From assembly GCA_902168205.1 (NCBI GenBank), contig CABHOK010000003.1, positions 1,178,001 to 1,242,000 on the forward strand: a DNA stretch of 64,000 nucleotides, in the 5' to 3' direction. This DNA comes from an uncultured Chitinophaga sp. GTDB taxonomy: Bacteria; Bacteroidota; Bacteroidia; Cytophagales; Cyclobacteriaceae. Made by a program: the position numbers and the translations under genes. The notes under the pieces were generated by a model. That model was not told the origin of the DNA and made no database searches. It saw nothing but the letters and a program-made list of their open reading frames with translations. Positions 8,011-24,148 of the stretch are shown piece after piece. Each line of letters opens with the position of its first letter. Within the stretch, counting starts at the first letter, position 1.

Positions 8011-10767
8011 ATGAAGCTGCATATAGCATTGTTCCTACTGGTGTTTTTTCATTCGGCATGCCTGGCACAGGAAGGCGACTACTTTTTAACACATCACAAG
8101 TACGATGATGATCGCTACGATCCGGTAAATTTTGATGTAGCGCAAGACAGCAACGGTCTTATCTATATTGCCAACAAAGGGGGCATATTGCGTTATGATG
8201 GTCACAACTGGGACCTTGTTTCGTGCAACGGTTCCGTTTACGATGTTCACATCACACCACAGAACCGGGTATATGTAGCCGGTAAAACCGGTTTTGGTTA
8301 CCTGCAAAATGTTACAGGCTTGTCAAATGCATCCTATATCCCTATATTCAGTAAAGCTCCGGTAGAAGGCATTATTCGCATTGAGCAGCGCGCGGATAGT
8401 ATCCTGTTCCTCAGTAATAAGACACTCTATATATACCAGGAGTCGAAGAATACCACCAGCCAGGTTCAGGCTCCGGAGAATAATGATTTTACAAATATAT
8501 TTATCCTGTCAGGAAAGGTTCTGTTGCAGACACAGAACAAGAATATATATACGCTGCAAAATGGAAGGTTAAAGGAGGCGGTAACGGCATGCCCGCGAAA
8601 TGCGTGGATATTATTTGCGGCAGATCATCCGTCTAATAAATCAATCAGCCTCATTGGTACAGATCGTAATGAACTTTACTGGATACGTCAGGGTAAAGCA
8701 TCGCGAATATATCCGAAGGACGATGGGTATATCGAGCAATCTGAATTGACGGCGTGTAGCTGGGTAAGTAATAATCTGATCGCGATCGGTACATTGCGGG
8801 GTGGTGTTGTATTTCTCAATGCTACCACGGGCATGATCGATAAGATCGTTAATTACCATACCGGTTTACCGGATAATGAGGTATATGCGCTGGGCAGCGA
8901 TCGCGATAAAGGAGTATGGGTAGCACATGAGTATGGCTTCACACGCATAGCACCGGAACTTCCTTTTCGTTGCTTCTCTAATTTTCCGGGTATAGAAGGA
9001 AATCTGTTAGCGGTAATGCCTTTTGAAAATACAGTATATGCAGGTACCAGCACGGGCATGTACTACCTGGAAGAGACTAAAAATTTTCAGACAACACTGC
9101 AGCGTGTTGAGGTAAAAGGATCACCCCGACAAAACAGGAAAGAGCGTACCGAGAACAAAGTGTCCGTTAAGACAGAGGCGCAACCGGTAAAGACAATAAC
9201 GGAAGAGGCAAATACAAAAACAAAACGCAAGGCCTTTTCATTTCTGAAGTCGAAGAAAAAGAAAGCACGTGAAGAAGAAGTAAAAGAAGAAGAAAGTCGG
9301 CCGGAGGTTGAAGAAAAAACGGTCGAGCCTGCTAAACGAAAAAGTACGTTTATACAACGCATTTTTTCACGCAAGCCCAAGACTATTTTTGAACGTCATC
9401 GCCAATTAAAATCTGTGCGCTATATCTATAAGGCCGTAGCGGGTTTTACGGGCAAAAGCAGTAGCATAAGGCATCTTAAAAACAGCCTGCTGTCAGGTGG
9501 TACGGGTGGTTTATTTGAGATCAAAGAAAAAAAGGCAGTTCGCATTGATGACGATAACACACTGGTGTTTTCCTACGATGCGACTCTTAACGAGATATTC
9601 TCGTTTACGGGCGATCATATCTTAAAAGTATTCTCGCAGGAAAAAGACAAATGGTCAATGTCATCTTCGATAAAGATCGAGGATGATATAGTACATATTA
9701 ACCGTACGAGCCAGCAGGACATATGGCTGGCTGGTCGCAATGCTATATATCTGTTACAGCGCAATATTGCGGGTCAATTGCAGGTAGTGCGTACGTTGGG
9801 CATCAGCAATCCATTCAATGACGATGTATACTCGTTCGTGCATAATAATAAAACATATTTTATCACTTCGCACGATTGTTTCTATTACGATGCATCGCGT
9901 AAAGTTCTGTTGCACGATCGTGAATTCAAAAAGCAGTTCGGTAAAGCCGAGCGCGTTATCATGAGCAATGAGAGTATATGGATTTTCAACGGCACCCGAT
10001 GGATCTGTCTCACCGATAAAGACACACAGCATCGGGCATTAAATGTACTTGGATTCTTCAAGCAGGTAAAATCGCTGTACGCACAGCAAGGCGGAGAATG
10101 CTGGGTAACAACCAGTACCAACGAACTATACAAGGTTTCTTCTGCCGGGTATAACGAGTCTTCCATGATGCACAAGGTTTTGTTGCGTGAAGTCCGGAGT
10201 AAAGAAGGACAGCCGTTGCCACTCGAAGACCTTCATGTAGAGCAGGATAACAGTTCGCTTGCGTTTGAGTTTGTTCATCCGGATTACCTGGGATTAATCG
10301 GTGTTCAGTACCAGTATAAACTCAACGGACTTTCTGATGAGTGGACAGCCTGGACTCCCAACTCGTCACTTTCATACCAGTTGTTGCCCGCAGGTTCGTA
10401 CAATCTTCATGTGCGTATACGGGATACGTTGGGTAAAGTATCTGAAGAACAGGTAATCCATTTTAATGTAGTGCCTCCGTACTGGAAGACCTCGTGGTTT
10501 TACCTGTTGGAAATTATCTTCTTCGGTTCATTGTTGTGGGCAACCTTCAGACTTAATCGTAAAGAGAGTCGCTATGAGTTTATTACGCGTATACTTACGT
10601 TGCTAACGTTGGTGCTCATCATCGAGCTGATCCAAAACCTGGTAGAGAGTTACTGGGCTACCAACACATCTCCTGTTATCAACTTCTTTGTGCAGGCAGC
10701 CATCGCGTTGCTGGTATATCCCGTTGAAAAGATTCTTCGACAATTTCTATCCGGCAAACCAAGTTAG
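8011..10767 (+). CDS. Two-component-regulator-type propeller protein with Y_Y_Y domain, no kinase
   Basis: A signal peptide (MKLHIALFLLVFFHSACLAQ) is followed by a periplasmic beta-propeller region resembling Reg_prop repeats (for example GLIYIANKGGILRYDG and GVWVAHEYGFTRI). The propeller is interrupted at about residues 365-460 by a very lysine/glutamate-rich insert. A Y_Y_Y domain follows (QYQYKLNGLSDEWTAW, about 745-810), then one transmembrane helix (about 827-845) and two more hydrophobic helices near the C terminus. In family members this architecture continues into a histidine kinase and often an AraC domain; here the 918-residue protein stops after the membrane helices. It could sense a periplasmic glycan or other ligand and signal through a partner. 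The cluster that follows at 11033 has a matching upstream repeat. Confidence 0.82.
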   Translation: MKLHIALFLLVFFHSACLAQEGDYFLTHHKYDDDRYDPVNFDVAQDSNGLIYIANKGGILRYDGHNWDLVSCNGSVYDVHITPQNRVYVAGKTGFGYLQNVTGLSNASYIPIFSKAPVEGIIRIEQRADSILFLSNKTLYIYQESKNTTSQVQAPENNDFTNIFILSGKVLLQTQNKNIYTLQNGRLKEAVTACPRNAWILFAADHPSNKSISLIGTDRNELYWIRQGKASRIYPKDDGYIEQSELTACSWVSNNLIAIGTLRGGVVFLNATTGMIDKIVNYHTGLPDNEVYALGSDRDKGVWVAHEYGFTRIAPELPFRCFSNFPGIEGNLLAVMPFENTVYAGTSTGMYYLEETKNFQTTLQRVEVKGSPRQNRKERTENKVSVKTEAQPVKTITEEANTKTKRKAFSFLKSKKKKAREEEVKEEESRPEVEEKTVEPAKRKSTFIQRIFSRKPKTIFERHRQLKSVRYIYKAVAGFTGKSSSIRHLKNSLLSGGTGGLFEIKEKKAVRIDDDNTLVFSYDATLNEIFSFTGDHILKVFSQEKDKWSMSSSIKIEDDIVHINRTSQQDIWLAGRNAIYLLQRNIAGQLQVVRTLGISNPFNDDVYSFVHNNKTYFITSHDCFYYDASRKVLLHDREFKKQFGKAERVIMSNESIWIFNGTRWICLTDKDTQHRALNVLGFFKQVKSLYAQQGGECWVTTSTNELYKVSSAGYNESSMMHKVLLREVRSKEGQPLPLEDLHVEQDNSSLAFEFVHPDYLGLIGVQYQYKLNGLSDEWTAWTPNSSLSYQLLPAGSYNLHVRIRDTLGKVSEEQVIHFNVVPPYWKTSWFYLLEIIFFGSLLWATFRLNRKESRYEFITRILTLLTLVLIIELIQNLVESYWATNTSPVINFFVQAAIALLVYPVEKILRQFLSGKPS

Positions 10768-10814: not shown

Positions 10815-10882
10815 GTTGTTTTCGGTAATTATAGATTCTGAGTTAAGCATTAAACCAGACAACAGTTCCTTTGGGAAGAATA

Positions 10883-11032: not shown

Positions 11033-13426
11033 ATGAAGCTGAAATTCAAACTTTCTTACCAGATATCTGCGGGATATCTGGTAATCGTACTGGTCGCTAT
11101 CATCGCTATAGTATCATGCTTTAGCGCGTTGGAAAGAAACAAGGATCTGGATACACGTATACAGCAAGTGTATATGCCATTTTACTTTTCCCTGAAGGAT
11201 CTTGATGCACTGCTGGCAAATTCATACAGACTAACCAGTCGTTGGGTGGCGCACGAAGACAGTAACCAGGAGAAACAGGAACTAAGAACTATTCATAAGA
11301 CACAATATTTCGAAGTAAAACAAAACCTGGATGAAATACTGAAGAACTCATCACTGGCGTCTGATCGCCAGGCAATTCAGGAGTTGTTTAGCGATTTTCA
11401 AACTGTAATTTCTGCGCAGAATGAATTGATGAGTTTACTCAAAAACGATTCGTCATACCTAAACACAGAATCTTTTGATCGCGCGCATCGCGTTTTTGAA
11501 CAAAAAGTTACCCCTCAAACCAGGCAGTTACGCGATAAACTCGACACACACATCCACAATCTTGATACTACCATCGATGAAGTACGAGCAGACAAACAGC
11601 ATGCCTATACGCGTGTAGTCATTACGTTGATTGTGATGCTTGCCATGTTTATAGGTATAGCGGGGATGGCGTATTTCTTTTCCATTACGCGCGTGGTAGA
11701 TCCCATCATTGAGTTGAAAAAAGTGATTCGCGAAGTAGGAGAGGGCAGTAAAGCAAAAGTAGCTTTTGAAAAGAGAAACGATGAGATAGGTCAGATCGGT
11801 CAGGCACTTGCTTCTCTTACAGAAGGTATGAATTCCAAGCTCGTATTTGCCGAGAAGATTGGTAAAGGCGAATACGATACGGATTTTGAATTACAAAGCG
11901 ATCGTGATGCTATGGGTAAGGCATTGCTCGATATGCGTGACAACCTGAAGCGAAATACAGAAACCGAGCGTCAGCGAAACTGGTCTATAGCAGGTCTTGC
12001 AGATTTTGCCGAGATCATTCGCAGTCAGGATGATTCTCAAACACTGGCCGATACCATCATCAGTAACATTGTACGGTATACTAACTCAAACCAAGGAAGT
12101 CTGTTTGTTGTGCAGGACAGTGCCGAAGGCGAAGAAGAGCACCTGCTGCTATATTCTTGTTATGCGTGGGATAAGAAGAAATTTGAGGAGAAGAAAATCT
12201 ATAAAGGACAAGGACTTGTAGGACAATGCTGGCAGGAGGGCAATCCTGTTTTTCTAACGCAGGTTCCGGCCAACTATGTGCACATTACTTCCGGTCTCGG
12301 CTATGCTACTCCGCGATCTATTTTTATTGTACCGCTCAAGATCAACGAAGCTATATATGGTGTGCTGGAACTCGCATCCTTCGAACCATACCCCCAACAC
12401 AAACAGGAATTTATAGTAAAGGTTTGTGAAAATATAGCGGCTGCTATAGCATCTGCAAAAAATGCCGAGCAGACCAGGCATCTGCTGGAGGTAAGCCGAC
12501 TTCAGACTGAAAATCTGCACGCACAGGAAGAAGAGATGCGGCAGAATATGGAAGAACTTGCAGCTACGCAAGAGGAGATGCAGCGTATTCTTACTGAAAC
12601 ACAGAATAAGGAGCGCTACTTGCGTGATCTCATGAATGCATCAACAGATGCGATTGTAACATTCGATCGCGAATACAGGGTTATACATTTCAACACGGCG
12701 ATGCAAAAGAGCTTTGAGGCAGAGGGCATAAGGCTGCAGGAGAAAAGTAATTTTCTTTTGCTGAGTAATAATACGAAAGATCCTGACTGGAAGAAAATAT
12801 ATGATCGTGCGCTGGCCGGAGAAACTATCCATAAAGAAATAACGCTCCGGGATAGACATTTTATAGTACAATATGTACCCATGCGTGATGATAGCAATCA
12901 TGTATTTGCTGTAGCACTTTTTTCGAAAGACGTAACTGACATCACAAAAGCTAAACTGGAAGTTGACAGGTTGTTAAATGAAAGCCGGCTGAAGGAAGTT
13001 GAATTGCGCGACACGATGGACAGACTGCAGGCTACGATGGAGAGTGATGCAAAACGTAGTCGCGAACTGGAACGCAATACTTCTCAATTGGAAGCGCAGA
13101 AGCAGATGATGCTAAAGGCTATTGAGAAGCTGAAAGAGAAGGAAAAGGAAACACAGGCGCAGGAGGAAGAACTTCGCCAAACGATGGAAGAACTGCAGTC
13201 TACTTTGGAAGGTGAAGCTAACCGAAGCAGAGAACTCGAGCGAAGCGCAGCTCAAATGAAAGCGCAGGAGCAGATGATGTTGAAAACGATTACCAAGCTG
13301 AAGGAGAAAGAAAACGAAACGCAGGCGCAGGCTGAGCAGATCCGGTTAAAGGAAGAACAACTGAAAGCGCAGGAAGATGTACTCCGACAGATGATGGAGG
13401 AACTGCAATCCGGTGGTGTAAAATAA
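11033..13426 (+). CDS. Membrane receptor HAMP-GAF-PAS-coiled coil, no output domain
   Basis: Two transmembrane helices (about 12-32 and 195-217) enclose a helical periplasmic domain like the four-helix-bundle sensors of chemoreceptors. A HAMP domain follows (VVDPIIELKKVI, about 217-270), then a GAF domain (about 316-480), a coiled coil with EEEMRQNMEELAATQEEM, a PAS domain (about 528-640) and a long coiled coil to residue 797. There is no HisKA, HATPase, GGDEF or MCP signalling tip that I can recognise, so output must go through partners. The last coiled coil contains a 56-residue tandem repeat (RSRELER at about 676 and 732). The STAS-like gene downstream, and the repetition of this gene pair at 13941-16177, suggest that receptor and STAS protein work together. 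Confidence 0.82.
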   Translation: MKLKFKLSYQISAGYLVIVLVAIIAIVSCFSALERNKDLDTRIQQVYMPFYFSLKDLDALLANSYRLTSRWVAHEDSNQEKQELRTIHKTQYFEVKQNLDEILKNSSLASDRQAIQELFSDFQTVISAQNELMSLLKNDSSYLNTESFDRAHRVFEQKVTPQTRQLRDKLDTHIHNLDTTIDEVRADKQHAYTRVVITLIVMLAMFIGIAGMAYFFSITRVVDPIIELKKVIREVGEGSKAKVAFEKRNDEIGQIGQALASLTEGMNSKLVFAEKIGKGEYDTDFELQSDRDAMGKALLDMRDNLKRNTETERQRNWSIAGLADFAEIIRSQDDSQTLADTIISNIVRYTNSNQGSLFVVQDSAEGEEEHLLLYSCYAWDKKKFEEKKIYKGQGLVGQCWQEGNPVFLTQVPANYVHITSGLGYATPRSIFIVPLKINEAIYGVLELASFEPYPQHKQEFIVKVCENIAAAIASAKNAEQTRHLLEVSRLQTENLHAQEEEMRQNMEELAATQEEMQRILTETQNKERYLRDLMNASTDAIVTFDREYRVIHFNTAMQKSFEAEGIRLQEKSNFLLLSNNTKDPDWKKIYDRALAGETIHKEITLRDRHFIVQYVPMRDDSNHVFAVALFSKDVTDITKAKLEVDRLLNESRLKEVELRDTMDRLQATMESDAKRSRELERNTSQLEAQKQMMLKAIEKLKEKEKETQAQEEELRQTMEELQSTLEGEANRSRELERSAAQMKAQEQMMLKTITKLKEKENETQAQAEQIRLKEEQLKAQEDVLRQMMEELQSGGVK

Positions 13427-13504
13427 CTGATAACGAGTTGAAGGGTGGCGGTTGGCAATCAACCGGATAAAAGTAAGGATATACTATATATAGTCTCGAT
13501 AAGC

Positions 13505-13909
13505 ATGCGCGTATATTTTGATAACGACTTTGTAAACATAGAGTATAATACAGACTATACATTCATTGTTTTGAAATGGAAGATAGCCCCCTGTTCAGAT
13601 GATTTCAGGCAAGGTCTGCATACGTTGCTTCTGGCGATGCAGCATTTTAAAACGGGAAAAGTTGTTGTTGATGCATCGCAGCTGGGGACGTTGTCTTCGG
13701 AAGACCAGGAATGGTCCGTTACATCATGGGCCAATAAAGCCGTTCGCGCGGGATACTCGCATCAGGCTACCGTTGTGTCCAAAGATATTTTTTCAAAAAT
13801 ACCTAAGAGTGAGAGACTCACGAATATTGGTATACTGACGTTTGCTGTTTTCGAATCATTTGAAGATGCTATTCGCTGGATGGAGCAGGCTACTCAAAGT
13901 TATCAATGA
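13505..13909 (+). CDS. STAS-like (SpoIIAA-like) small protein
   Basis: A cytoplasmic protein of 134 residues when started at the ATG at 13505 (MRVYFDND); an in-frame start at 13445 would add 20 residues of low plausibility. It shows the pattern of Bacteroidota STAS-like proteins: an N-terminal beta strand ending in VLKWK, a helix, a strand KVVVDASQLGTLSSEDQEW, a helix ending before a V-x-V strand, and a C-terminal helix SFEDAIRWMEQ. The protein at 31491 shares this layout (SDISNQGVISPDNRKW and EAIEWL), and the one at 15728 does so more weakly. Such proteins usually bind partner proteins rather than catalyse. It lies between two membrane GAF receptors and is 31 bp from the second, so a role in the same signalling chain is inferred. 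Confidence 0.65.
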   Translation: MRVYFDNDFVNIEYNTDYTFIVLKWKIAPCSDDFRQGLHTLLLAMQHFKTGKVVVDASQLGTLSSEDQEWSVTSWANKAVRAGYSHQATVVSKDIFSKIPKSERLTNIGILTFAVFESFEDAIRWMEQATQSYQ

Positions 13910-13940
13910 ATATACGCTAGATCCCAATCAGGTATAAAGG

Positions 13941-15626
13941 ATGAAAACCAAAGTAAAAAAATTTCTTACCCGAAATGCAATCACGGTAGCGATCATCATG
14001 ATCGTATTGTTGTTGGTAACAAACGTTGTGCTTATTCTTCAATATAAAGCAACGCTTGTAAAGAACACCGCCATTAAGCAAAAGGCTGAAGAGATTAAGT
14101 ATAAGTCTGGCCAATTGATTGACTACGTATTGCATAATATGGACCTCGGTATACGTGCGTATGGTGCAACCAAGAACAAGGATATGTTAGCTCCTTCGAT
14201 GACAGCCATTGAAAAAATAGATCAAGTGTTTGATGAACTGGAAGGCGGCCTGCAGGAGCAGGCACAACCATATGATGTGGCGGGATTGAAAGAGCTTCGC
14301 AAAACCTATATCGAGTACGGTAAGTTTATTCATGAGATGGCACGCATGATTGAGCTGGACAGTATGAATACATTTCGCGCAATGATGTCGGAAGATCGCG
14401 GATTGAAAGTGTTTATGCATTGGAACGATGTCGGGGTAAAGATCAGTATTCACGAAGATGTCATTAACGGGCAAGCCGAAGAGAGTTATCAGGCTGCCAT
14501 AAATAATAATATATACCTGCAGTTCTTTATATTGATTGTGAGTTTGCCGACACTCGGGTTTGTAATCTATAAAATTCGAAAAGATAACAACGAACGCTTT
14601 TCTTTGCTCACAGAACTCGAACAGAACAACCGTAAATATGTTTTCAATCCGGGAACGTCATCCTATTCCAACGATCAGAAACAGTTAATCGAACACTCAA
14701 TCAAAAATCTTCAACAGGCGAGTGAGTTCATTGAAAATATATCGGAAGGACGATATGATACCACGTGGACTGAGTTGAACGATGCCAATAAAGCACTCAA
14801 CGAAATGAACCTGGCCGGCAGACTTACGCGCATGCGCGATCAGCTAAAGCAAATGAAGAAAGAGGAGGAGCGCAGGCTGTGGAGTAACGAAGGTATAACG
14901 CTGTTTTCGGAAACCGTTCGCAATCACCAGAAGAACTTAACGGAGCTGTCGCTCGAAGTAGTGCGTTTCCTTACCAAGTATATGAATGCACAGCAGGGCG
15001 GCCTTTTTGTTTTGAAAGAAGATGAAAGTGAATCTTACCTGCAGCTTGCAGCGTGCTATGCCTTTGATCGCAAGAAATATATAGAGAAGAAAATAGAAAT
15101 AGGCGTGGGGCTCATCGGCCAGGTGTACCTCGAAGGACAAACCACCCTCATTACGAAAGTTCCACAAGGATATACCTATATAACATCCGGAATGGGAGAA
15201 GCTACACCAGAGTGCTTGTTGATTGTGCCGATGAAGTATAATGAGCGAACGGAAGCAATCATTGAGTTGGCGAGTCTGGAGAAATTTGAAGATTACCACG
15301 TAGCGTTTATAGAGAAAGCAGGGGAGTTTGTTGCTTCTGCATTGCAAAGCGTACGAACAACAGAGAAGATGCAGAACCTGCTTGATGCTTCACGACACCA
15401 GGCAGAAGAGATGCGATCTACGGAAGAAGAAATGCGCCAGAACCTGGAGGAGCTGCAGGCTACGCAGGAGGAAATGGTTCGCAAGCAAAAAGAGATTGAT
15501 CGCATACGCGAAGAAGAGGCCGAACGTGCGCGTAAAGTAGCTGAGAGCAATCGCCAGGCTACCAATAAAATTATAGAGAAGCTGAAAGTTACGGAAGAAG
15601 AGCTTCGGAGATTAAAGGAAGCCTGA
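13941..15626 (+). CDS. Membrane receptor with GAF domain and coiled coil, paralogue of the gene at 11033
   Basis: The 561-residue protein has a transmembrane helix at about 13-33, a helical periplasmic domain, a second membrane helix (FFILIVSLPTLGFVIY, about 192-208), a GAF domain (about 312-465) and a C-terminal coiled coil with EEEMRQNLEELQATQEEM. The GAF domain is clearly paralogous to that of the upstream receptor: both share GLVGQ/GLIGQ, the YxxITSGxGxATP segment and IELASLE/LELASFE. It lacks the PAS domain and a recognisable HAMP motif, and like its paralogue has no catalytic output domain. It is followed 101 bp later by another STAS-like gene, repeating the receptor-STAS order. Confidence 0.8.
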   Translation: MKTKVKKFLTRNAITVAIIMIVLLLVTNVVLILQYKATLVKNTAIKQKAEEIKYKSGQLIDYVLHNMDLGIRAYGATKNKDMLAPSMTAIEKIDQVFDELEGGLQEQAQPYDVAGLKELRKTYIEYGKFIHEMARMIELDSMNTFRAMMSEDRGLKVFMHWNDVGVKISIHEDVINGQAEESYQAAINNNIYLQFFILIVSLPTLGFVIYKIRKDNNERFSLLTELEQNNRKYVFNPGTSSYSNDQKQLIEHSIKNLQQASEFIENISEGRYDTTWTELNDANKALNEMNLAGRLTRMRDQLKQMKKEEERRLWSNEGITLFSETVRNHQKNLTELSLEVVRFLTKYMNAQQGGLFVLKEDESESYLQLAACYAFDRKKYIEKKIEIGVGLIGQVYLEGQTTLITKVPQGYTYITSGMGEATPECLLIVPMKYNERTEAIIELASLEKFEDYHVAFIEKAGEFVASALQSVRTTEKMQNLLDASRHQAEEMRSTEEEMRQNLEELQATQEEMVRKQKEIDRIREEEAERARKVAESNRQATNKIIEKLKVTEEELRRLKEA

Positions 15627-15727
15627 AAACTGATAACTACTTTGATACTATTATAAACAGTACTTACAGATATATACCATAAAAGACCTGGACATAATTA
15701 TTGCTTTTGGAGCTAAACAGAACTGAA

Positions 15728-16177
15728 ATGATATCTATGCGTGTGACGGAGTTGCTCAGGCTTACAACAACATCAGGAAGAACTTATCTGATCGTTAATC
15801 AGCTTGACACAGAGGGGTTGGAAGTGATCTGGAAAGGATTTACTCCCCAGGGAATTTTTAAGGCAGGTATAGATATGGTTGCGGAATTGATGGTAAAGCA
15901 TCGCCCCGCAATTTTGGTGTTTAACGTCCTGGAGCATAATACGAGCGAAGAGTTGCAGCGGTATGCTACTGCTGCGCTGCTTGAGTACGCCAAGAAGTAC
16001 TTTATGCGTACTTTCTCGGGGCAGAAATTCAAGCGTGTGATTGTAACGAATACGATTGGCCCGGAGGATGTTGAAGAACCCTCGAAGGGATATTTTGTGC
16101 GACTATCTGAGCCACGTGTAGAGACTGTATATACATCGAGTACAGAGGAAGCTTATCATATTGCCGGACTCCGGTAA
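15728..16177 (+). CDS. STAS-like small protein
   Basis: Started at the ATG at 15728 (MISMRVTE) this is a 149-residue soluble protein; a second ATG at 15737 and a TTG at 15701 are alternatives. The pattern is similar to the STAS-like protein at 13505: strand LEVIWKG, helix FKAGIDMVAELMVKH, strand AILVFNVLEHNTS, a long helix, strand FKRVIVTNT and a C-terminal STEEAYHIAG helix. Sequence similarity is low, so family membership is an inference from the predicted strand and helix order and from the position right after a GAF receptor. No catalytic motif is seen. Confidence 0.55.
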   Translation: MISMRVTELLRLTTTSGRTYLIVNQLDTEGLEVIWKGFTPQGIFKAGIDMVAELMVKHRPAILVFNVLEHNTSEELQRYATAALLEYAKKYFMRTFSGQKFKRVIVTNTIGPEDVEEPSKGYFVRLSEPRVETVYTSSTEEAYHIAGLR

Positions 16178-16255
16178 GAACCTTGATCAATGAAATATAC
16201 TGCGATGTATAGCGGGTGCCTGCCTGATAACCACATTGGATTGAACTGATTTCGG

Positions 16256-17224
16256 ATGATTTTTAATTACCCCCGGGAAGATCGATCACTGGAAGTGAAC
16301 ATTGTGCTTAGCTTCACCAAGAGCACAATGATCATTACGGCACTCTATGCAATTTATGATTTTTTTCAGAACGATTTTGATGCTGGTGTAAAGGCCGGTG
16401 TTACGATGATTGTATATAGCAGCCTGTATGTTCTCATTCTATATACGAGAGGTGCACGTGGCGTTATCAAACTTATCATGGGCATGTATATGCTCTCCGT
16501 TCTGGGAGGTTTCTTTTTTCAGGGTGGACTATTCAATGTCAATGGCTTTGATATGTTTGCACTTATTATTGCGCTTACGTTCGTGTTTAACGGGAGCGAA
16601 CGCGTTGTGTTTTTGTCGTTGTACACACTGCAGATTCTGACTGTGTCCTATATTCAGATTGCACATCCGGAGTGGATATCGAACGTGCGCGACAAAGATT
16701 CCGTGCTCGTGAATATAGCCGAGATATTTGCCCGCATTTTAAATGTACTCTACATAGTTTACCTCTATAAGAAAGAATTTGAGAAAGAGCGCGAGCGTGT
16801 ATTTGAGACCAACGAGAAACTAGAGGAAGCAAACGCAGAGGTATACGCGCAAAATGAAGTTATCGCGTCTTACAACCGATCACTCGAAGTACTGGTTGAA
16901 GAGCGAACCAAGGATATACAGTCGCTGAATCAGAAATTGATTGAATACGCTTTCTTCAACTCTCACAAAGTAAGAGGGCCGTTAGCCAGAATACTGGGGC
17001 TCATATACCTGATCCGGTTAACCTCCGCAGTTAATCAAAACGAGAGTATCCGTTCAATAGACGACCAGATTGAAATGCTGGAGAAAAGTGCCACCGAACT
17101 TGATGACGTAATCAAAGCCATTACCGTTCTGCTGGACGAAGAAACAAAAGATATACTTGAATATCGAACCGCACTCTCTGTAAGAAAGGGAGATGATCGT
17201 TCGTCAACACAATCCATTTCGTAA
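16256..17224 (+). CDS. Membrane protein with histidine-kinase DHp domain but no ATPase domain
   Basis: The first 175 residues contain about five or six hydrophobic helices, followed by a charged coiled coil (about 178-225) and a DHp-like helix hairpin with H237 in FFNSHKVRGPLARILGL. The protein ends about 85 residues later at residue 322, without N, G1 or G2 boxes. In related kinases from this phylum an HATPase domain follows. The stop overlaps the start of the next gene and the ORF is otherwise intact, so this looks like a designed short protein rather than a recent truncation. It may serve as a phosphotransfer or dimerisation partner that needs an external kinase. Confidence 0.75.
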   Translation: MIFNYPREDRSLEVNIVLSFTKSTMIITALYAIYDFFQNDFDAGVKAGVTMIVYSSLYVLILYTRGARGVIKLIMGMYMLSVLGGFFFQGGLFNVNGFDMFALIIALTFVFNGSERVVFLSLYTLQILTVSYIQIAHPEWISNVRDKDSVLVNIAEIFARILNVLYIVYLYKKEFEKERERVFETNEKLEEANAEVYAQNEVIASYNRSLEVLVEERTKDIQSLNQKLIEYAFFNSHKVRGPLARILGLIYLIRLTSAVNQNESIRSIDDQIEMLEKSATELDDVIKAITVLLDEETKDILEYRTALSVRKGDDRSSTQSIS

Positions 17225-17793
17225 TGCGTTTAGAGTTAGGAGGATTTTTTCAATGGACGCATCGTTGGAGAATCAAACTTCGGCCATCATTCATTTCTAC
17301 AAACATAATGATGCTTGCCCTATACGTGCATAGCTATGCACAACCTTCGATCCATTACTCGTATGCCGTGTTTGTTCAAAGCTTCGCCCGGTATAGTTCG
17401 TGGCCGGTATCACCCAGTGGTTTTAAAGTGGTGGTTGTAGGAAATACAAAGGCTTACGATGAAATCGTGAAGAGCGTTGCAGGTAAAGTGATAGCCGGGT
17501 CTGCCGCCACCGTTGTAAAGAACGATGATGATGATGCCAGTATAGAGGATGCGAGCATTATATATATAGCGGATGGTGCGAGTAATCAACTATCGCAGCT
17601 GTTGAAAGTAACAGATGGTAAACCTGTAATGATTATAGCGGAAAGGGAAGGACTTCATAAGAAAGGCGCTGCAATGAGTTTTATAGTGATCAACAGCAAA
17701 TTGAAGTTCGATATCAATATGAAGGAACTGGACAAACGCAATCTGAAAATTTCGGCACAACTAACAGCGTTAGCCAACAATATTCTTGAGTGA
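17224..17793 (+). CDS. YfiR/DUF4154 family periplasmic protein
   Basis: The 189-residue product has an N-terminal hydrophobic segment ending in SYAQ (about residue 40) that looks like a signal peptide. It then shows the DUF4154 (YfiR-type) pattern: HYSYAVFVQSFARYSSWP, a VVVVGN strand, VMIIAEREGLHKKGAAMSFIV and KLKFDINMKELDKRNLKISAQL. YfiR proteins are periplasmic repressors that hold a membrane signalling enzyme in check. The start codon overlaps the stop of the H-box membrane protein (TAATG), so translation is coupled and the two proteins probably act together. A later in-frame ATG at residue 29 is an alternative start that would shorten the leader. Confidence 0.8.
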   Translation: MRLELGGFFQWTHRWRIKLRPSFISTNIMMLALYVHSYAQPSIHYSYAVFVQSFARYSSWPVSPSGFKVVVVGNTKAYDEIVKSVAGKVIAGSAATVVKNDDDDASIEDASIIYIADGASNQLSQLLKVTDGKPVMIIAEREGLHKKGAAMSFIVINSKLKFDINMKELDKRNLKISAQLTALANNILE

Positions 17794-17846
17794 ATTCAAA
17801 TAATAAGAGAACTATACATGACAACCTTACTTTACCTGACAATTGT

Positions 17847-20800
17847 ATGAAAAAAGGACGCAACAGGCGACACTATTTGCTTTTTACTTGTTTTATACTC
17901 ATGGGAATTTCCAGCGCACTTGCTCAGAAGCAGGTGGTGAGTGGAGTTGTAACCGATCCATCACTGGGAGCACCGATTCATGGCGTAAGTGTCATGGTTA
18001 AGGATTCCCTCACCTTGACAACTACTGATGCCGAGGGTAAATATTCGATCCTGGTAAAATCAACCGACATACTGGTTTTTTCGATATCAGGGTATATATC
18101 TGCCGAACTCCCTGTAGGCAACAACACACACCTCGATGTTGCGCTTGAAGAAGATATACAGTCACTCGCAGAACTTATGGATGTTGTATTGGTTGGTTAC
18201 GGTGAATTGAAACGAACGGATCTTTCGAGTGCGCAGGTATCGTTGGATGACAAACAAGTTGACATGACATTGAATACTACGGTTGAGCAGGCGTTGCAGG
18301 GTCGTGCAGCCGGAGTATATATTACGCAGAACACGGGCCAGCCCGATGGATCAGTATCCGTAAACGTACGCGGTATAAATTCTGTAAACGGTACAAATGA
18401 TCCGCTCTATGTAATCGATGGTATACAGATTAATACCAGCGGAGCATTCGGCAGTAACAGTGCAGTATCTCCTTTGGCGGGATTGAATCCGGCAGATATT
18501 GAGACGATCGAAGTGTTGCAAGGACCTTCTGCCACGGCTATATATGGATCGCGTGCTACCAATGGTGTAATTCTCATCACAACCAAACGCGGCAAACAAG
18601 GTGATCTGAGTATACGATATGGATTTCAATATGGTATACAGAATACCCCAAAGCAACTTCCGGTGTTGAACCAGCAACAGTATGCTCAATTTACAAACGA
18701 ATTACATGCGAGCGCGGGGGGGACAAGTCCGGAAGAATTTCAGGACGTATCGTTATTGGGCAAAGGTACTGATTGGCAACGTGAACTGTTTACAACGGCC
18801 CCCCTGGTGAACCATCAGCTCAGCATCAGTGGTGGTAAAGAAGATACTCAATTCTATTTGTCGGGTGATTATTTCAAACAGGATGGTATTACTCCGGGAG
18901 CAGGCTTTGATCGCGGAAGCATTCGGTTAAATGTCGATAACCAGACGCGCTCTTGGTTAAAACTGAATGTGAATCTGAATGTTAACCAGACCGATGATAA
19001 ACTTACTGCACAAAGCGAAAATGTAATTGTAAATACACTTGCTATTGCTCCTAATATAGCAGTACGAAATCTCGATGGTAGCTGGGGCGGAGCAGATAAT
19101 GCCAACGGCAACAGCGTGCAGTATACGCCTTACAACCCGGTAGCCATTGCCAACCTCATCCAGAATAAATATAAACGCAGACAGTTACTGGGCGGTGTAG
19201 GTGCTGAGGTCAATCTTGCGAAGGAACTTACGTTCAAAACATCACTCAATACAAATATAGGTACAGCCAGCACGACATACTTTGTGCCGACCTATACGCT
19301 TGGGCAACAGGCAAACAATATAGCAAACCTTACCATAACAGAGACAAATTCTAGCTACTGGAGCTGGAACCAATTACTGCAATACAATAAAACAATAGGT
19401 GATCATGCTGTTGGCGTTATGGTGAGTCATGAAGCGCAGTACGGTCTCGTGAAGAATGTCTCCAGCGGACGCATGGGCTTTATTACTACCAATATACTCG
19501 ACCTGAATGCCGGTAACAGCAGTGAATCATCAAACAGTAGTACGCAATCGGATTGGGCGATGGAGTCTTACTTCAGCCGGGTAAACTATACATTTAGAAA
19601 TAAATATATAGTACAGGCAGCGATGCGTGCTGATGGATCATCAAACTTTGGTCGCGACCATCGTTGGGGAGTGTTCCCATCGGGTTCCGTAGCGTGGCGT
19701 ATTTCGCAGGAACCGTTCATGAAGAGTATAACTCCAATCAACGAATTGAAGCTCCGCGCTGAGGCCGGTGTTACGGGTAACCAGGGTAATGGCGGAGTAT
19801 ATAGCGCACTTACCCCGATCACTACTTCATGGGGAACAGGTTTCGTTACCAGCCAGTATGGAAATCATAATCTGAAGTGGGAGCAAACTACAACTTATAA
19901 TATAGGTTTCAACCTGGGACTGTTGCAGGATCATATTCATGTTGAAGGCGACTTCTATATCAAGAAGACTGATAACCTGATCATGAAAAGTCAGTTGCCT
20001 GATTATTTAGGAACGAACGGAAACGGTTCGATTGCTTCGCCAACGGAAAATATAAGTGCACTTGAAAATCGTGGCTATAGCATTACCGTAAGCACTGTAA
20101 ATCTCGATCGGAATAATTTTGTGTGGAATACCAATTTCAATATATCCGGGTTTAGAACGAAAGTTACCAGGCTATATTCCGAGTCCGCTATTATCGATCG
20201 CTCGGCCTGGTATATGAATAATTTTACACAGCGTTCTGTGGTGGGTAAAGCTCCATGGCAATTCTATGGTTACCAGGAAGAAGGACTGTTCAAGTCTGTT
20301 GATGAGATTAATGCGAGTGCGCTGCCGGTTGGCAGTGATGGAAAAGAGTTATCCGTTGGCGAGTATGGCGTATGGGTAGGCGATACCAAGTATAAAGATG
20401 TAAACCAGGATGGTGTTATTGATGAAAAAGATCGCACCTATATTGGTAATCCCTGGCCGAAATTTTTCTTCGGTATTACCAATACATTCGAGTATAAAGG
20501 TTTTGATCTCAACGTGCTGATCACCGGTTCGTATGGAAACGACATTTATAACTATATGCGTTATGCCAATTCATATCCCAACAATGTAAATCTGGGAATG
20601 AATGTTTTTGACGAAACGATGAGCTATGCACAGGTAGCAACTGATGCTCAGGGTAATCCTTATCTCTTAAATGCGGGCACACAGCAAGCCCGTCTTGTAG
20701 GTACGGCCAACGGTAACAATACACGCATCAGTAACCGGTTTGTAGAAGATGGATCTTACCTGCGGTTGAAAAATGTACAGCTTGGGTATACACTGCCGTC

Positions 20801-21014
20801 ATCACTGCTGTCCAAACAGAACCTGGTTAAAGATGTGCACATCGCAATAGGTGCACAGAACCTGGCCACACTTACGGGCTATAAAGGATATGACCCTGAA
20901 GTGGGAGCGTATGTAGGTAAATCGATGACGGCTAACAATCAGCCAATAGGTGTCGATTACGGACGATACCCATTGACACCGGTATATACCTTTAGTATCC
21001 ATGTTGAATTGTAA
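17847..21014 (+). CDS. SusC/RagA-type TonB-dependent outer membrane receptor
   Basis: From the ATG at 17847 the protein has 1055 residues: a signal peptide ending in SSALAQ, a carboxypeptidase-like CarbopepD_reg domain (VVSGVVTDPSLGAPIHGV), a plug domain with VLVGYGELKRTDLSSAQ and YGSRATNGVILITTK, and a long 22-stranded barrel ending in VYTFSIHVEL. The GTG-started frame from 17790 merely extends it into the upstream gene. It imports a ligand, usually an oligosaccharide, with the SusD protein encoded next. The gene follows the YfiR-like gene by about 50 bp, so it may be co-transcribed with the sensory block. Confidence 0.93.
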   Translation: MKKGRNRRHYLLFTCFILMGISSALAQKQVVSGVVTDPSLGAPIHGVSVMVKDSLTLTTTDAEGKYSILVKSTDILVFSISGYISAELPVGNNTHLDVALEEDIQSLAELMDVVLVGYGELKRTDLSSAQVSLDDKQVDMTLNTTVEQALQGRAAGVYITQNTGQPDGSVSVNVRGINSVNGTNDPLYVIDGIQINTSGAFGSNSAVSPLAGLNPADIETIEVLQGPSATAIYGSRATNGVILITTKRGKQGDLSIRYGFQYGIQNTPKQLPVLNQQQYAQFTNELHASAGGTSPEEFQDVSLLGKGTDWQRELFTTAPLVNHQLSISGGKEDTQFYLSGDYFKQDGITPGAGFDRGSIRLNVDNQTRSWLKLNVNLNVNQTDDKLTAQSENVIVNTLAIAPNIAVRNLDGSWGGADNANGNSVQYTPYNPVAIANLIQNKYKRRQLLGGVGAEVNLAKELTFKTSLNTNIGTASTTYFVPTYTLGQQANNIANLTITETNSSYWSWNQLLQYNKTIGDHAVGVMVSHEAQYGLVKNVSSGRMGFITTNILDLNAGNSSESSNSSTQSDWAMESYFSRVNYTFRNKYIVQAAMRADGSSNFGRDHRWGVFPSGSVAWRISQEPFMKSITPINELKLRAEAGVTGNQGNGGVYSALTPITTSWGTGFVTSQYGNHNLKWEQTTTYNIGFNLGLLQDHIHVEGDFYIKKTDNLIMKSQLPDYLGTNGNGSIASPTENISALENRGYSITVSTVNLDRNNFVWNTNFNISGFRTKVTRLYSESAIIDRSAWYMNNFTQRSVVGKAPWQFYGYQEEGLFKSVDEINASALPVGSDGKELSVGEYGVWVGDTKYKDVNQDGVIDEKDRTYIGNPWPKFFFGITNTFEYKGFDLNVLITGSYGNDIYNYMRYANSYPNNVNLGMNVFDETMSYAQVATDAQGNPYLLNAGTQQARLVGTANGNNTRISNRFVEDGSYLRLKNVQLGYTLPSSLLSKQNLVKDVHIAIGAQNLATLTGYKGYDPEVGAYVGKSMTANNQPIGVDYGRYPLTPVYTFSIHVEL

Positions 21015-21033
21015 GCCAATAAAGACTATCGAA

Positions 21034-22686
21034 ATGAAAAGAAATATTAATCGCCGATATTACCTTGGAGCTGCTGTTGGACTGTTGCTGTCACTGGCCA
21101 GTTGTCAGAGCGACTTTCTTGACCGTGAGCCATTGGATGCCCCGTTGAATGAGAACTTCTACCAGACTAAAGACCAGGTGCTGGCTGCAACGGCATCCCT
21201 ATACGGTTACGCATGGTTTGACTATAACACAACGCCATCGTATGGTATAGGCGATGCGCGAGGTGGAACACTTACCGGTACTGTTAACCAGATCGATAAT
21301 ATACTCTTTGAGACATCCGGTGCTTCATCGGATAACAGCAGTGCGTGGCGTGCTTTTTATAATGTGATAGGACAAGCCAACCGGGTTATGAGTGATGTAG
21401 AGAAATATACGGCATCAAGTGTTCCCGAAAGTACGAAGCTATACGCTATAGCAGAAGCGCGTTTTATGCGCGGTCTTGCCTATTCATACCTGGTTCAAAA
21501 CTGGGGTCCTGTTCCCATCATTACCGATAATGAGGCATCGCTTAGTGATACCGAAATAACGCGTAACACAGTTGAGTCGGTATGGGAGTTTGTTGTCCGC
21601 GATATCCGCTATGCAGCAAAAACGTTGTCAGCTACACCTATTCAGGATGGACGACTCACCAAGTATGCTGCGCAAGGCGTTCTGGCGAAAATGTTTCTTA
21701 CCCGTGCCGGTATATCCGGAACACGAAATCAATCGGATCTGGACAGCGCTGCTTACTATGCCAAATCCGTGATCGATAACAGTGGTGCTTCGTTGTTAGC
21801 AGACTATGAAGAGCTCTTCAAGATGAAAAATAACAACAACACGGAAAGTCTGTTCGCACTGCAGTGGATATACAACGGAACTTGGGGAACGCAGAACGCG
21901 ATGCAATCGTACCTGGCGTATAGTCCGGAAATTACCGGGTTCAACGATGGCTGGGGGGGCGATCTTGGCGCTTCTATGTTTATACTTGAAAAGTATGAAG
22001 CTGCTGATAAGCGCAGGAAGGGAACGTTCATGTTTCCGGGCGATCACTATAGCTATATACATCAATCGGTAACAAATGCCCAGACCGGTGAGAGTACCAT
22101 TCAGGAATTGAAAGTTCCTTTGAGCAACGGTTCTTTCGGAGCGCGGGCATGGGTAAAGAAATATGTAGTGGGCAGACCGGAAGATAATGATGGTAAAGTA
22201 TTGCAACAGCGTACAGGTATAAATACCTATATATTACGGTTGGCAGATGTATACCTCATCTATGCAGAAGCTATACTGGGGAATAATGCTTCTACGGCCA
22301 ATGCGGAAGCCTTGAAGTACTTCAATAAGGTTCGTGCACGTGCGGGACTCTCATCAAAAACCTCCATCACGTGGGATGATATCTATACCGAGCGCGTTCT
22401 CGAATTTGCTATGGAGGGACAACTCTGGTACGACTATGTTCGGTTGCATTACTATAGTCCTGCAAGAGCATACGATCTTCTCAGCGACCAGGAGCGCGGA
22501 CTATATACGATTACACCGGTATATACCGGTAATGATCTTTCGGCAGAGCCTACGAGCTGGACTATATCGTTGAGTTATTCCAGGAAGATCACAGCCAACT
22601 CCGGCAATTTTACAATGCCGATTCCTACCGTTGAATTAACACGTGCACCGAACCTGTTGAGGGATCCTGTGCCGTATAGTTTTTGA
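21034..22686 (+). CDS. SusD/RagB family surface lipoprotein
   Basis: Starting at the ATG at 21034, the 550-residue protein has a lipoprotein signal (LLSLASC|QSDFLD) and the SusD pattern: FLDREPLDAPLNENFYQTKDQ, ANRVMSDVEK, AEARFMRGLAYSYLVQNWGPVPI and, near the C terminus, VYLIYAEAILGN, YFNKVRARAGL and ERVLEFAMEGQLWYDYVR. It sits on the cell surface as the lid of the SusC pore and captures the substrate. The gene begins 19 bp after the susC-like stop. An ATG at 21001 inside the end of that gene is in frame but would spoil the signal peptide. Confidence 0.93.
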   Translation: MKRNINRRYYLGAAVGLLLSLASCQSDFLDREPLDAPLNENFYQTKDQVLAATASLYGYAWFDYNTTPSYGIGDARGGTLTGTVNQIDNILFETSGASSDNSSAWRAFYNVIGQANRVMSDVEKYTASSVPESTKLYAIAEARFMRGLAYSYLVQNWGPVPIITDNEASLSDTEITRNTVESVWEFVVRDIRYAAKTLSATPIQDGRLTKYAAQGVLAKMFLTRAGISGTRNQSDLDSAAYYAKSVIDNSGASLLADYEELFKMKNNNNTESLFALQWIYNGTWGTQNAMQSYLAYSPEITGFNDGWGGDLGASMFILEKYEAADKRRKGTFMFPGDHYSYIHQSVTNAQTGESTIQELKVPLSNGSFGARAWVKKYVVGRPEDNDGKVLQQRTGINTYILRLADVYLIYAEAILGNNASTANAEALKYFNKVRARAGLSSKTSITWDDIYTERVLEFAMEGQLWYDYVRLHYYSPARAYDLLSDQERGLYTITPVYTGNDLSAEPTSWTISLSYSRKITANSGNFTMPIPTVELTRAPNLLRDPVPYSF

Positions 22687-22717
22687 TTGATCATTAAAAA
22701 AGAAACATAAGAATTGT

Positions 22718-24148
22718 ATGAATAAGAATACTACAAGCACAGCGATAACAAGAGCTTTTCTGCTTCTTTTAATGGTGGCAGGTGGCTATAGTATGATATC
22801 CTGCAACGATGATGAAAAGATTGGTGCTCCCGTTATCACGCAAGTGCGACTGATTGACCCTGCTCATCAGGACAGTACATTTACTGAAGCTTTTCCTGGA
22901 ATAAAGGTTGTTGTGGAAGGACAGAATTTCATTGATGTGAAAAGCGTTGCCATGAACAACACGGTGGTGAGTATTAATCCTGCATACGTGCGGGACGGAA
23001 GTATAATAGTGGAGATTCCGGAAGACTTGCCGTTACATGGCACGGATGCTTCGTTGCCCAATCAGATAAAAATAACAACAGCGCATGGTGAAGCAGTATA
23101 TAGCTTTACCTTTCTGTCACCAGCACCAACCATTGCGCAGTTTAATTTTTCGCTCCCAGCTACCGCAGGGCAGACGCTGGACATAATCGGTACTAATTTT
23201 TACAACGTGCAGAACGTTATTTTTGCTACCGGTGGTCAGGCAATTGATGTGACTGCGTTCACGGTTAGCAGCACGTATGATACTATATATGTAACAATTC
23301 CCACGGGAGGCGATGCGGATGGTACCATCACCGTAGTAACGGAGAGCGGTGAGGCTTCAAAGATTTTCAGAGCAACCGTTACTCCTTTTATCACCGGTAT
23401 CAGTACGGATATGCCGGTGTGGGGCGATTCGCTTGTGATTAGCGGTGAGTATTTTATGGGTATTAAGAGAATTGTGCTGCCCGGTAATGTGGAAGTACCA
23501 GCAAGCGCTATTCACATCAATGCAAGTCAGACGCGCCTGTCTTTCATAACGCCAAGGCTACAGGCCGTAGGTATATTGAAAATTGTAACCAGCAGTACGG
23601 AAGTACCGGGTACAGTGGTGCTTAATGATACGACAAAAGATATATATAATCACGATGGTATCGGCAATTGGACATGGGCCAGCAGTGAATCGGTTAACGG
23701 TTCATCGCCGGCTGTAGCGCGCAGAAAGTTCACACGATTCTCGGGAACAATTCCTGCCTATACCGGTTGGGGCCAGGCCAACGGTTATGCTATCAATAGC
23801 TGGCCAACGTCAATTAGCGATGATACACCGATCAGCGATCTGGCGCTCAAGTTTAATTTTTATTCCGGCTATGAATGGAAAGATGCTGTATATATAGATG
23901 TACGCATTGCCAACAACGAAAATTATTCGGTAAAACTGGAGCCGTGGAAGACCGGAACAGTTCCTGTAGGACGCTGGTTTGAATTTTCGATATCATTAGC
24001 CGATTTCAATATCCCCGATAAAAACATCTACGCAGATTGGAAAAGTCTTCCGCTCGATAATGCTGTTGTGCTGGTTGTAGCCAATAACAATGAAAAGTCG
24101 CTGCAGATAAACTTTTGTGTAGATGATTTACGGATCGTAAAGAAATAG
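22718..24148 (+). CDS. IPT/TIG-domain surface glycan-binding lipoprotein
   Basis: A 476-residue lipoprotein (GGYSMISC|NDDEK) with three IPT/TIG-like Ig repeats (for example FPGIKVVVEGQNFIDVKSV, AGQTLDIIGTNFYNVQNV and WGDSLVISGEYFMGIKRIVL) and a C-terminal beta domain with several aromatic residues (YTGWGQANGYAINSW, FYSGYEWKDAVYIDVRI). This is the layout of the SusE-position surface glycan-binding proteins (SGBP-B type) of polysaccharide utilisation loci. It follows SusD by 31 bp as the third gene of the set. The ligand cannot be deduced; no glycoside hydrolase gene lies next to the triplet. Confidence 0.85.
   Translation: MNKNTTSTAITRAFLLLLMVAGGYSMISCNDDEKIGAPVITQVRLIDPAHQDSTFTEAFPGIKVVVEGQNFIDVKSVAMNNTVVSINPAYVRDGSIIVEIPEDLPLHGTDASLPNQIKITTAHGEAVYSFTFLSPAPTIAQFNFSLPATAGQTLDIIGTNFYNVQNVIFATGGQAIDVTAFTVSSTYDTIYVTIPTGGDADGTITVVTESGEASKIFRATVTPFITGISTDMPVWGDSLVISGEYFMGIKRIVLPGNVEVPASAIHINASQTRLSFITPRLQAVGILKIVTSSTEVPGTVVLNDTTKDIYNHDGIGNWTWASSESVNGSSPAVARRKFTRFSGTIPAYTGWGQANGYAINSWPTSISDDTPISDLALKFNFYSGYEWKDAVYIDVRIANNENYSVKLEPWKTGTVPVGRWFEFSISLADFNIPDKNIYADWKSLPLDNAVVLVVANNNEKSLQINFCVDDLRIVKK

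Follow-up and report, generated by a model that had tools for sequence, protein, structure and literature searches.

An inherited Cytophagales-type module of kinase-less receptors, STAS-like proteins and a membrane DHp protein without a CA domain

A kinase-less receptor, one or more small STAS-like proteins and a membrane DHp protein without a CA domain (HBOX) form an inherited module rather than a chance cluster, because the combination recurs at eight loci in three genera and its receptor RecA falls into a single clade. In the window, the whole 64-kb stretch of DNA analysed here, the conserved core reads propeller–RecA–STAS1–RecB–STAS2–HBOX and spans 8011–17224. Our best explanation, held tentatively and with less than even confidence, is that the module divides the work of a histidine kinase over separate proteins. 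Sensing would be carried out by the kinase-less receptors, RecA and here also RecB, and probably by the propeller protein, and one or more SpoIIAA-like STAS proteins would couple the receptors to HBOX. The conserved His of HBOX would exchange phosphate with complete kinases and receivers, or its DHp bundle would dock onto them; in the genus of the window these partners would be the ones encoded next to the module. For this scheme we infer all physical contacts, which way phosphate flows and what the output is.

An earlier note on this DNA had described a tightly spaced six-gene sensory cluster, from RecA to a YfiR-like gene, without any of the usual output domains. All six open reading frames were confirmed where it placed them, on the plus strand and closely spaced, and Pfam and profile searches of the cluster proteins tried found none of the six to match a HATPase, GGDEF or MCP domain. 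RecA (11033..13426, plus strand) is a TM-HAMP-GAF-PAS-coiled-coil receptor by Pfam, without an output domain, and RecB (13941..15626, plus strand) is a membrane GAF-coiled-coil receptor (GAF_2, 2.8e-10); neither has a Pfam match to an MCP signalling tip or to a STAS domain. The repeated order described there does not reflect a duplicated unit. The two receptors fall into different subfamilies in the tree, which rules out that a receptor–STAS pair was doubled within the cluster, and the relationship between STAS1 and STAS2 shows only at the profile level. RecB appears to be a later recruit, its paralogue family otherwise standing alone. The borders of the cluster also had to be moved: the YfiR gene lies outside the conserved unit, and an upstream gene (8011..10767, plus strand) has to be added. 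It encodes a propeller (Reg_prop)-Y_Y_Y membrane protein by Pfam, without kinase, HTH or output domain, and its place upstream of RecA is kept in 4/4 same-genus clusters. This gene is possibly transcribed separately from RecA onward, given a terminator-like hairpin at 10798 (one of 24 such matches, with 14.4 expected by chance). A Bacteroidetes-type promoter pattern had 0 matches in the 64-kb window. A defence system and a phage origin were both rejected: none of the six proteins had a PADLOC match at E<=0.01, and for three of them, compared with PHROG, no match went below E 0.028.

The gene order is kept in four of seven same-genus genomes, and four genomes from two additional genera (three Fulvivirga and G275) have the receptor–STAS–HBOX form, so the clustering that the earlier note described does recur, in surroundings that differ among the three genera. 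The eight RecA cluster orthologues form one clade (support 100/99) in a receptor tree whose bootstrap had not settled (0.987). The HBOX tree is compatible with it: the eight cluster rows group with one stand-alone row at 99/97, and the eight alone at 70/52. Comparison with UBA5867 gave dN/dS values of 0.04-0.08 over RecA, STAS1, STAS2 and HBOX (0.07 for STAS1), the mark of purifying selection. In the fetched loci the gene calls come from a plain longest-ORF script, and where Pfam is not named a HATPase, H-box or SpoIIE label stands for a motif pattern. The literature searched, mostly outside subscription papers, contained no account of such a set of genes.

The YfiR/HmsC-like periplasmic protein (17224..17793, plus strand; PF13689 (DUF4154), E 3.8e-27) had been counted as a cluster member, a role ruled out by its absence from two of the four clusters of the genus, those of O. 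koreensis and G151. It goes instead with the TonB/Sus module, here the genes for SusC, SusD and a surface glycan-binding-like protein (17790..24148, plus strand; Pfam), because two relatives have the core without SusC/SusD (loci L114 and L115; both genes are present in L094/L113) and because 6/10 YfiR genes of this genome adjoin a TonB receptor.

HBOX (16256..17224, plus strand) consists of a membrane domain, read as six spans, a signalling helix and a DHp hairpin with a weak HisKA match (E 0.088) and no CA. The predicted model shows a long helix, a turn, a second helix and then nothing, the tail beyond the DHp match being 24 residues; its best Foldseek match was no better than E 1.6. Among PDB sequences, the HBOX profile matched DHp regions of histidine kinases, including RetS and ZraS. 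The candidate phospho-acceptor is a His at residue 237, in the sequence H-K-V-R-G. This His is present in 29/29 CA-less rows passing the DHp profile, all eight module members included, and 17 of the 29 have Lys at His+1, where HBOX lacks a carboxylate; the loci counted were mostly picked by HBOX, STAS, YfiR or receptor similarity, with identical proteins dropped and near-copies kept. Across 16/16 chosen diverse CA-less homologues seven residues never vary, His237 among them. HBOX is not a truncated, decaying kinase, because its coding sequence is under purifying selection (dN/dS 0.08 against UBA5867); CA is absent from 8/8 cluster orthologues. The earlier note had suggested either partner switching or a distributed phosphotransfer. 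Because no module member has lost the His, phosphotransfer from a receiver to the His, as with Spo0B, seems somewhat more likely than purely allosteric docking.

HBOX could instead be a pseudokinase whose DHp forms heterodimers that activate or inhibit complete kinases, the receptors and STAS proteins setting its state and the His being structural. This is possible, though we consider it rather doubtful; it is modelled on the action of RetS on GacS or of CA-truncated ChrS on HrrS. RetS modulates GacS and retains its CA domain, and the PDB matches of the HBOX profile include the RetS entries 6dk7/6dk8 and 7n0e, the last of which we take to be a GacS/RetS complex. The lack of both CA and a His+1 carboxylate in HBOX also fits a pseudokinase, as do tandem pairs of His-bearing and His-less proteins at three loci (L162, L164, L174). 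The His-less member of each pair adjoins a His-bearing paralogue and counts against our best explanation; all three fall below the DHp profile cut-off and hence outside the 29-row set. Within that set, a His in every row is more than structure alone predicts. The H-box of the flanking kinases, compared by eye, differs from that of HBOX, a further point against this reading. For ChrS, one study points both ways: the CA-truncated protein alters HrrS signalling without need of its own His, but showed no heterodimerisation in a two-hybrid assay (PMC9491836).

HBOX-type proteins do not need STAS or receptor neighbours, since 16 of 20 HBOX-type loci have neither within ~6.5 kb. This counts against the divided-kinase explanation and suits another one, in which loosely collected sensory genes are held together by shared synteny and share no joint pathway, and YfiR would work on the receptors in the way that it does on YfiN. 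In the sampled genomes STAS and HBOX-type genes do lie mostly apart from each other and from receptors, and at one locus (L036) a YfiR gene lies 9 bases before a RecA-like receptor gene. We nevertheless judge a mere collection unlikely: receptor, STAS and HBOX are co-inherited in three genera with differing surroundings, and YfiR is missing from half of the genus clusters. In favour of the divided-kinase explanation, DHp and a C-terminal STAS domain occur in one protein in six cases: L034 has a Pfam-confirmed HATPase, L223-L226 show its motif, and in L227 none was seen. A 141-aa DHp-only gene also adjoins a STAS gene in L029.

STAS1 (13505..13909, plus strand) is SpoIIAA-like; the listed frame opens at 13445, and the start near 13505 was placed by homology. 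Its PF11964 match (E 0.001) is below cut-off, though 8/16 members of its family match at E<=0.01 (best 1.8e-5), and its profile matched no PDB sequence at E<=1. STAS2 (15728..16177, plus strand; listed frame from 15701) has a close homologue that starts at the place of 15728. Profile comparison with the STAS1 family (hhalign probability 93.2, E 3e-7) suggests a divergent STAS-like protein; a low-confidence model gave nothing in Foldseek at E<=0.001 (RsbS came 48th, E 0.27), and the STAS fold of STAS2 is putative, a point against our best explanation. In a sample of 148 family genomes, three of them from the genus, STAS2 was found in two alone, that of the window and that of O. koreensis; it also occurs in UBA5867 and G151. 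SpoIIAA-like proteins as such are found in 75/118 genomes of the order (E<=1e-8). STAS proteins mostly appear to work elsewhere, because 0/40 STAS genes adjoin a GAF receptor in eight module-less genomes, another count against our best explanation. These genomes were hand-picked, two from within the genus and six that had given HBOX-type matches, and are silent on module-bearing ones; adjacency was judged by coordinates, and the four closest cases, when inspected, were not adjacent. Among STAS loci from another search, a receptor was adjacent in 2/17 and a SpoIIE-type motif nearby in 3/17; the 17 are those judged of 20, L178, L190 and L192 being left out because the STAS frame there escaped the ORF script.

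Partner switching, or a divergent stressosome, would have the receptors steer STAS phosphorylation, with a Ser/Thr kinase and a PP2C encoded elsewhere and HBOX as one target downstream. The SpoIIAA-like character of STAS1 speaks for it, as do SpoIIE-type phosphatases near STAS genes in L087 (Pfam) and in L187, L189 and L194 (motif only), and a G127 locus in which a TPR-SpoIIE gene is followed, all in the same orientation, by RecB-like, STAS and GAF-DHp genes. However, the SpoIIAA phosphosite position, which we take to be two residues after the conserved Asp, holds Ser/Thr in 40/84 STAS proteins and Arg in 30/84 (84 being 89 rows minus five dropped beforehand), and neither an RsbW/RsbT-type kinase nor a PP2C was found among the cluster genes and the flanking genes scanned. 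We therefore regard this reading as improbable, and in its canonical form the partner switching suggested by the earlier note finds no support.

Complete kinases near the module favour the divided-kinase explanation. The earlier note's statement that no complete kinase is present holds inside the cluster but not for its flanks, where complete kinases lie on both sides of the core on the minus strand, in places that are kept in same-genus relatives. The divergent flank encodes a REC-REC-PAS-HisKA-HATPase protein (3387..5288, minus strand; Pfam, HisKA slightly under cut-off), a single-domain response regulator (5290..5742, minus strand; Response_reg 7e-19) and a complete PAS x3-HisKA-HATPase kinase (5729..7570, minus strand; Pfam). 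All three have homologues in L113-L115, that of the first lying upstream of the cluster and cut by the locus ends. The convergent flank encodes a complete GAF-HisKA-HATPase kinase (24204..25424, minus strand; Pfam), whose homologue in O. koreensis is convergent and lies 13 bases past HBOX. Each of the three flanking HATPase proteins thus has its own HisKA match, one of them slightly under cut-off. In G275 the second gene past HBOX encodes a complete propeller kinase. Around the three Fulvivirga modules, however, none of the genes listed showed a kinase motif, so that neighbouring kinases are no constant part of the module. This counts against our explanation, and the conserved flanking genes may reflect plain synteny within the genus.

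The module is no stressosome, canonical partner-switching system or YfiBNR system, though it resembles parts of each of several known systems. Spo0B and ChpT are soluble and carry a CA-like C-terminal domain, whereas HBOX is membrane-seated and has nothing after the DHp; the likeness lies in the conserved His of the DHp hairpin, which is predicted to be phosphorylatable. With RetS/GacS and ChrS, HBOX shares the character of a kinase-inactive DHp protein, and we know of no STAS partners for either. Published work lists Spo0B and ChpT among DHp proteins trading phosphate with receivers (PMC5231405), and the pseudokinase ChrS, though inactive itself, acts on a second kinase through its DHp protein (PMC9491836). 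In split histidine kinases such as CheA3/CheA4, and in the HATPase-less HisKA proteins of one survey (PMC3591291), the phospho-acceptor domain likewise sits on a protein without its ATPase, but the kinases near HBOX are complete, so a reciprocal half is missing. That survey gives 1556 of 42417 HisKA proteins as lacking a HATPase and picks out 711 candidate bifunctional split kinases by an HE/DxxN/T motif (PMC3591291); HBOX, with HKVRG in the window, does not have this motif. A stressosome of the RsbRSTX type also combines sensor proteins with small STAS proteins, but the genes scanned here include no sensor-STAS fusion, RsbT or RsbX, and the receptors are membrane GAF proteins. Gram-negative stressosomes are adjoined by downstream signalling modules, HisKA/HATPase ones among them, according to one study (PMC9237108). 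YfiBNR shares a YfiR/DUF4154 protein with this region, but the six products gave no GGDEF match and YfiR here travels with SusC/SusD.

It is conceivable, if still doubtful, that the module represents a new class of distributed histidine-kinase signalling, in which kinase-less membrane receptors act through exchangeable STAS adaptors on an ATPase-less membrane DHp protein with an altered H-box (His-Lys-x-Arg-Gly/Ala-Pro), powered by separate complete kinases. If so, membrane DHp proteins without CA would form a larger family, some of them paired with His-less partners, and the module would be its representative in a gene cluster. Surveys have counted HisKA proteins that lack a HATPase (PMC3591291); their roles are poorly known. 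HBOX belongs to this group. It is conserved, evolves under purifying selection and retains its His, and a particular receptor and STAS proteins are inherited along with it. The module thereby opens a direct experimental route to the function of a DHp domain that has no kinase engine, and it places some of the order's many SpoIIAA-like proteins in a genetic setting.

The window comes from a 7.3-Mb genome, from a contig 2.27 Mb long. All six open reading frames that the earlier note proposed as a sensory cluster were present on the forward strand: two membrane-bound GAF receptors (RecA, 11033-13426; RecB, 13941-15626), two STAS-like genes (STAS1, 13505-13909; STAS2, 15728-16177), a membrane protein with an H-box (HBOX, 16256-17224), and a YfiR gene (17224-17793). 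Pfam identified HAMP, GAF, and PAS domains in RecA, GAF in RecB, a sub-threshold SpoIIAA-like match in STAS1, a very weak HisKA match in HBOX, and a strong DUF4154 match in YfiR; the search with STAS2 gave no useful match. No Pfam match to HATPase, GGDEF, or MCP was found in any of the six products, and the claim of missing output domains therefore holds. The cluster was also said to lack a complete kinase, which is true of its interior but not of its surroundings within the genus, where complete kinases flank both sides. A PAS-PAS-PAS-HisKA-HATPase kinase (5729-7570), a single-domain receiver (5290-5742), and a REC-REC-PAS-HisKA-HATPase protein (3387-5288) are upstream and divergent, and a GAF-HisKA-HATPase kinase (24204-25424) is downstream and convergent, all on the reverse strand. 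Homologues of the upstream trio are in place at L113, L114, and L115, the same-genus loci, and of the downstream kinase at L114 and L115; L094 has a frame of equal length and similar start in its place. In G275, from outside the genus, HBOX is followed, two genes on and in the same orientation, by a gene for a complete propeller–Y_Y_Y kinase. The genes examined around three Fulvivirga copies of the receptor–STAS–HBOX module showed no kinase motif, so adjacent kinases are not a constant part of it.

HBOX is 322 aa long. Its AlphaFold model (mean pLDDT 70, built from 6 sequences) has a helix at 150-259, a turn, a helix at 265-315, and nothing further C-terminal. The model's helices may represent six membrane spans, of which the sixth continues into helix 150-259, and the long helix–turn–helix without further domain marks the predicted C-terminus as a DHp hairpin without a catalytic ATPase (CA) domain. 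The solved structures matched by the HBOX profile were mostly histidine-kinase DHp regions, with RetS and ZraS named (sequence-profile match). His237 and six more residues are invariant across 16 diverse members, and the histidine is kept in 29 of 29 CA-less DHp-type frames passing the profile, all of which end soon after the DHp. The residue at His+1 in these frames is Lys (17), Glu (4), Leu (4), His (2), Asn (1), or Ile (1). In ten relatives with a catalytic domain it is Asn (7) or Asp (3), so a carboxylate here is not absolute in this class; one further profile-passing frame has a long tail, no ATPase motif, and Asp at His+1. The lack of both catalytic domain and His+1 carboxylate in HBOX argues against autophosphorylation. 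The main rival explanation is that HBOX would be a pseudokinase, by analogy with the CA-truncated ChrS (PMC9491836). For the wider family it gains support from His-less paralogues, three more distant relatives (L162, L164, and L174), each directly beside a His-bearing one. Retention of the histidine in all eight module HBOX proteins favours chemistry over pure scaffolding. The three loci carry tandem pairs of ATPase-less membrane proteins (L162:8878-10660, reverse strand; L164:7984-9763; L174:7696-9424), one partner HBOX-type and the other similar in layout without the H-box His. Two proteins that by eye are TPR-like and membrane-spanning, of 486 aa (L043:7473-8933, reverse strand) and 501 aa (L044:6288-7793), also end right after a DHp hairpin and are ATPase-less.

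The cluster is present in 4 of 7 genomes of the genus, and a receptor–STAS–HBOX module at four loci beyond it (L155-L158). The HBOX profile matched 62 of 390 family genomes (E<=1e-20), some matches spanning the whole protein and many covering the DHp end only. Twenty HBOX-type loci were fetched from the family, and neighbourhoods were judged within ~6.5 kb: four carried the module (Fulvivirga kasyanovii, L155; F. marina, L156; G361, L157; G275, L158), and 16 had neither STAS nor receptor gene. The order at L155, L156, and L157 is receptor–(STAS2-position gene)–STAS–STAS–HBOX. In the G275 cluster, a single frame (L158:6678-8978) appears by eye to be a degenerate STAS start followed by a TonB-dependent-receptor-like remainder. 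In a phylum sample, a broader HBOX profile matched 14 of 392 genomes, in 9 of 179 genera (E<=1e-20), some over part of the profile. Against UBA5867 (G150), dN/dS was 0.08 for HBOX and 0.04-0.07 for RecA, STAS1, and STAS2, at dS of 1.0-2.1.

In a tree of 43 receptors, whose bootstrap is not fully settled, RecA of the eight clusters formed one clade (100/99) spanning three genera, and RecB grouped with same-genus paralogues that stand alone. In the tree of 25 HBOX-type proteins, the eight cluster proteins grouped with one stand-alone row at 99/97, and alone at 70/52. Taken together, the two trees make common inheritance of RecA, STAS, and HBOX as one unit the most likely history, with RecB a later addition. 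The order described as internally repeated would thus reflect recruitment; duplication of a receptor–STAS unit is ruled out by the grouping of RecB with lone paralogues, apart from the RecA clade.

The gene orders of relatives redraw the borders first proposed. UBA5867 (L094/L113) has the window's order, with YfiR, SusC, SusD, and a glycan-binding-like protein after HBOX. Ohtaekwangia koreensis (L056/L114) and MAG G151 (L093/L115) have propeller–RecA–STAS1–RecB–four STAS genes–STAS2–HBOX and then the convergent GAF kinase, with no YfiR, SusC, or SusD between HBOX and that kinase. YfiR, counted as a cluster member in the earlier note, thus belongs with TonB receptors: 6 of the 10 YfiR genes in the window's genome adjoin a TonB-dependent receptor (L037, L038, L039, two in L040, and the window), and one in L040 repeats the YfiR–SusC–SusD order. 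At L036:8430-10997, 9 bases separate a YfiR gene from the RecA-like GAF receptor downstream of it; the two may form a YfiR-receptor pair without GGDEF motif, so YfiR may also have a link to receptors. Upstream, the propeller/Y_Y_Y gene (8011-10767) is kept in 4 of 4 same-genus clusters; it has no output domain and, by eye, C-terminal hydrophobic helices. A terminator-like hairpin follows it (10798-10813), and it is possibly a separate transcript. In G151, STAS2 and HBOX are ~1.1 kb apart (L115:14748-15868), and an open frame of 109 aa in this gap resembles part of a second HBOX.

A search with STAS1 gave 25 matches in the window's genome (E<=0.01), and relatives were found in 75 of 118 genomes of the order (E<=1e-8); a SpoIIAA-like match was obtained for 8 of 16 family members (E<=0.01). 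STAS2 resembled this family in profile comparison (probability 93.2, E 3e-7); its model is poor (pLDDT 63) and had no significant Foldseek match. Only 40 of 84 STAS rows have Ser or Thr at the position that we take, by analogy, to be the SpoIIAA phosphosite; 76 of 84 keep the Asp preceding it. Six frames from two genera join a DHp to a C-terminal SpoIIAA-like STAS: HATPase was confirmed by Pfam in one (L034:7612-9633, reverse strand), and its motif was seen in four (L223:1282-3267; L224:3234-5222 and L225:2427-4442, both reverse; L226:1629-3512) and not seen in L227:1781-3751. Such fusions demonstrate that a STAS domain can function alongside a DHp of this type within one polypeptide, and are the best argument for a putative STAS–HBOX contact. 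Receptor–STAS pairs without HBOX occur at L119, L176, and L179. In eight genomes without the module, none of 40 STAS genes directly adjoined any of 108 GAF matches, which counts against such pairing as a general rule. Genes for SpoIIE-type phosphatases are found close to STAS genes at L087 (Pfam) and, judged by motif, at L187, L189, and L194.

Other STAS neighbourhoods vary. A 141-aa DHp-only gene directly precedes a STAS1-family gene (L029:8169-9039). An additional STAS-family gene in the window (31491-31892) adjoins a diacylglycerol-kinase-type gene, and a STAS gene downstream of the O. koreensis cluster adjoins a gene that looks similar to this kinase-type gene (L056:16325-17689). A chorismate-lyase domain (Pfam) is fused to STAS at L189:7597-8637 (reverse strand), beside a gene with a SpoIIE-like motif. 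At 3 of 17 judged loci (L184, L186, and L187), the STAS gene adjoins a presumably patatin-like protein with a near-N-terminal GGGALGA motif.

HisKA proteins that lack HATPase form a recognised class, numbering 1556 of 42417 in PMC3591291; the HBOX motif is unlike that of the bifunctional candidates named there. Minimal stressosomes with downstream signalling modules have also been described (PMC9237108); the window's system, by comparison, has no sensor-STAS fusion, RsbT, or RsbX. Among the papers listed in our literature search, none described receptor, STAS, and HBOX genes together. As a working order, the signal most likely runs from receptor to STAS to HBOX to receivers or complete kinases: the output-less receptors would alter a STAS-bound state, the STAS proteins would act upon the HBOX DHp hairpin, and HBOX may pass phosphate to or from receivers, or gate complete kinases such as the adjacent ones of this genus.
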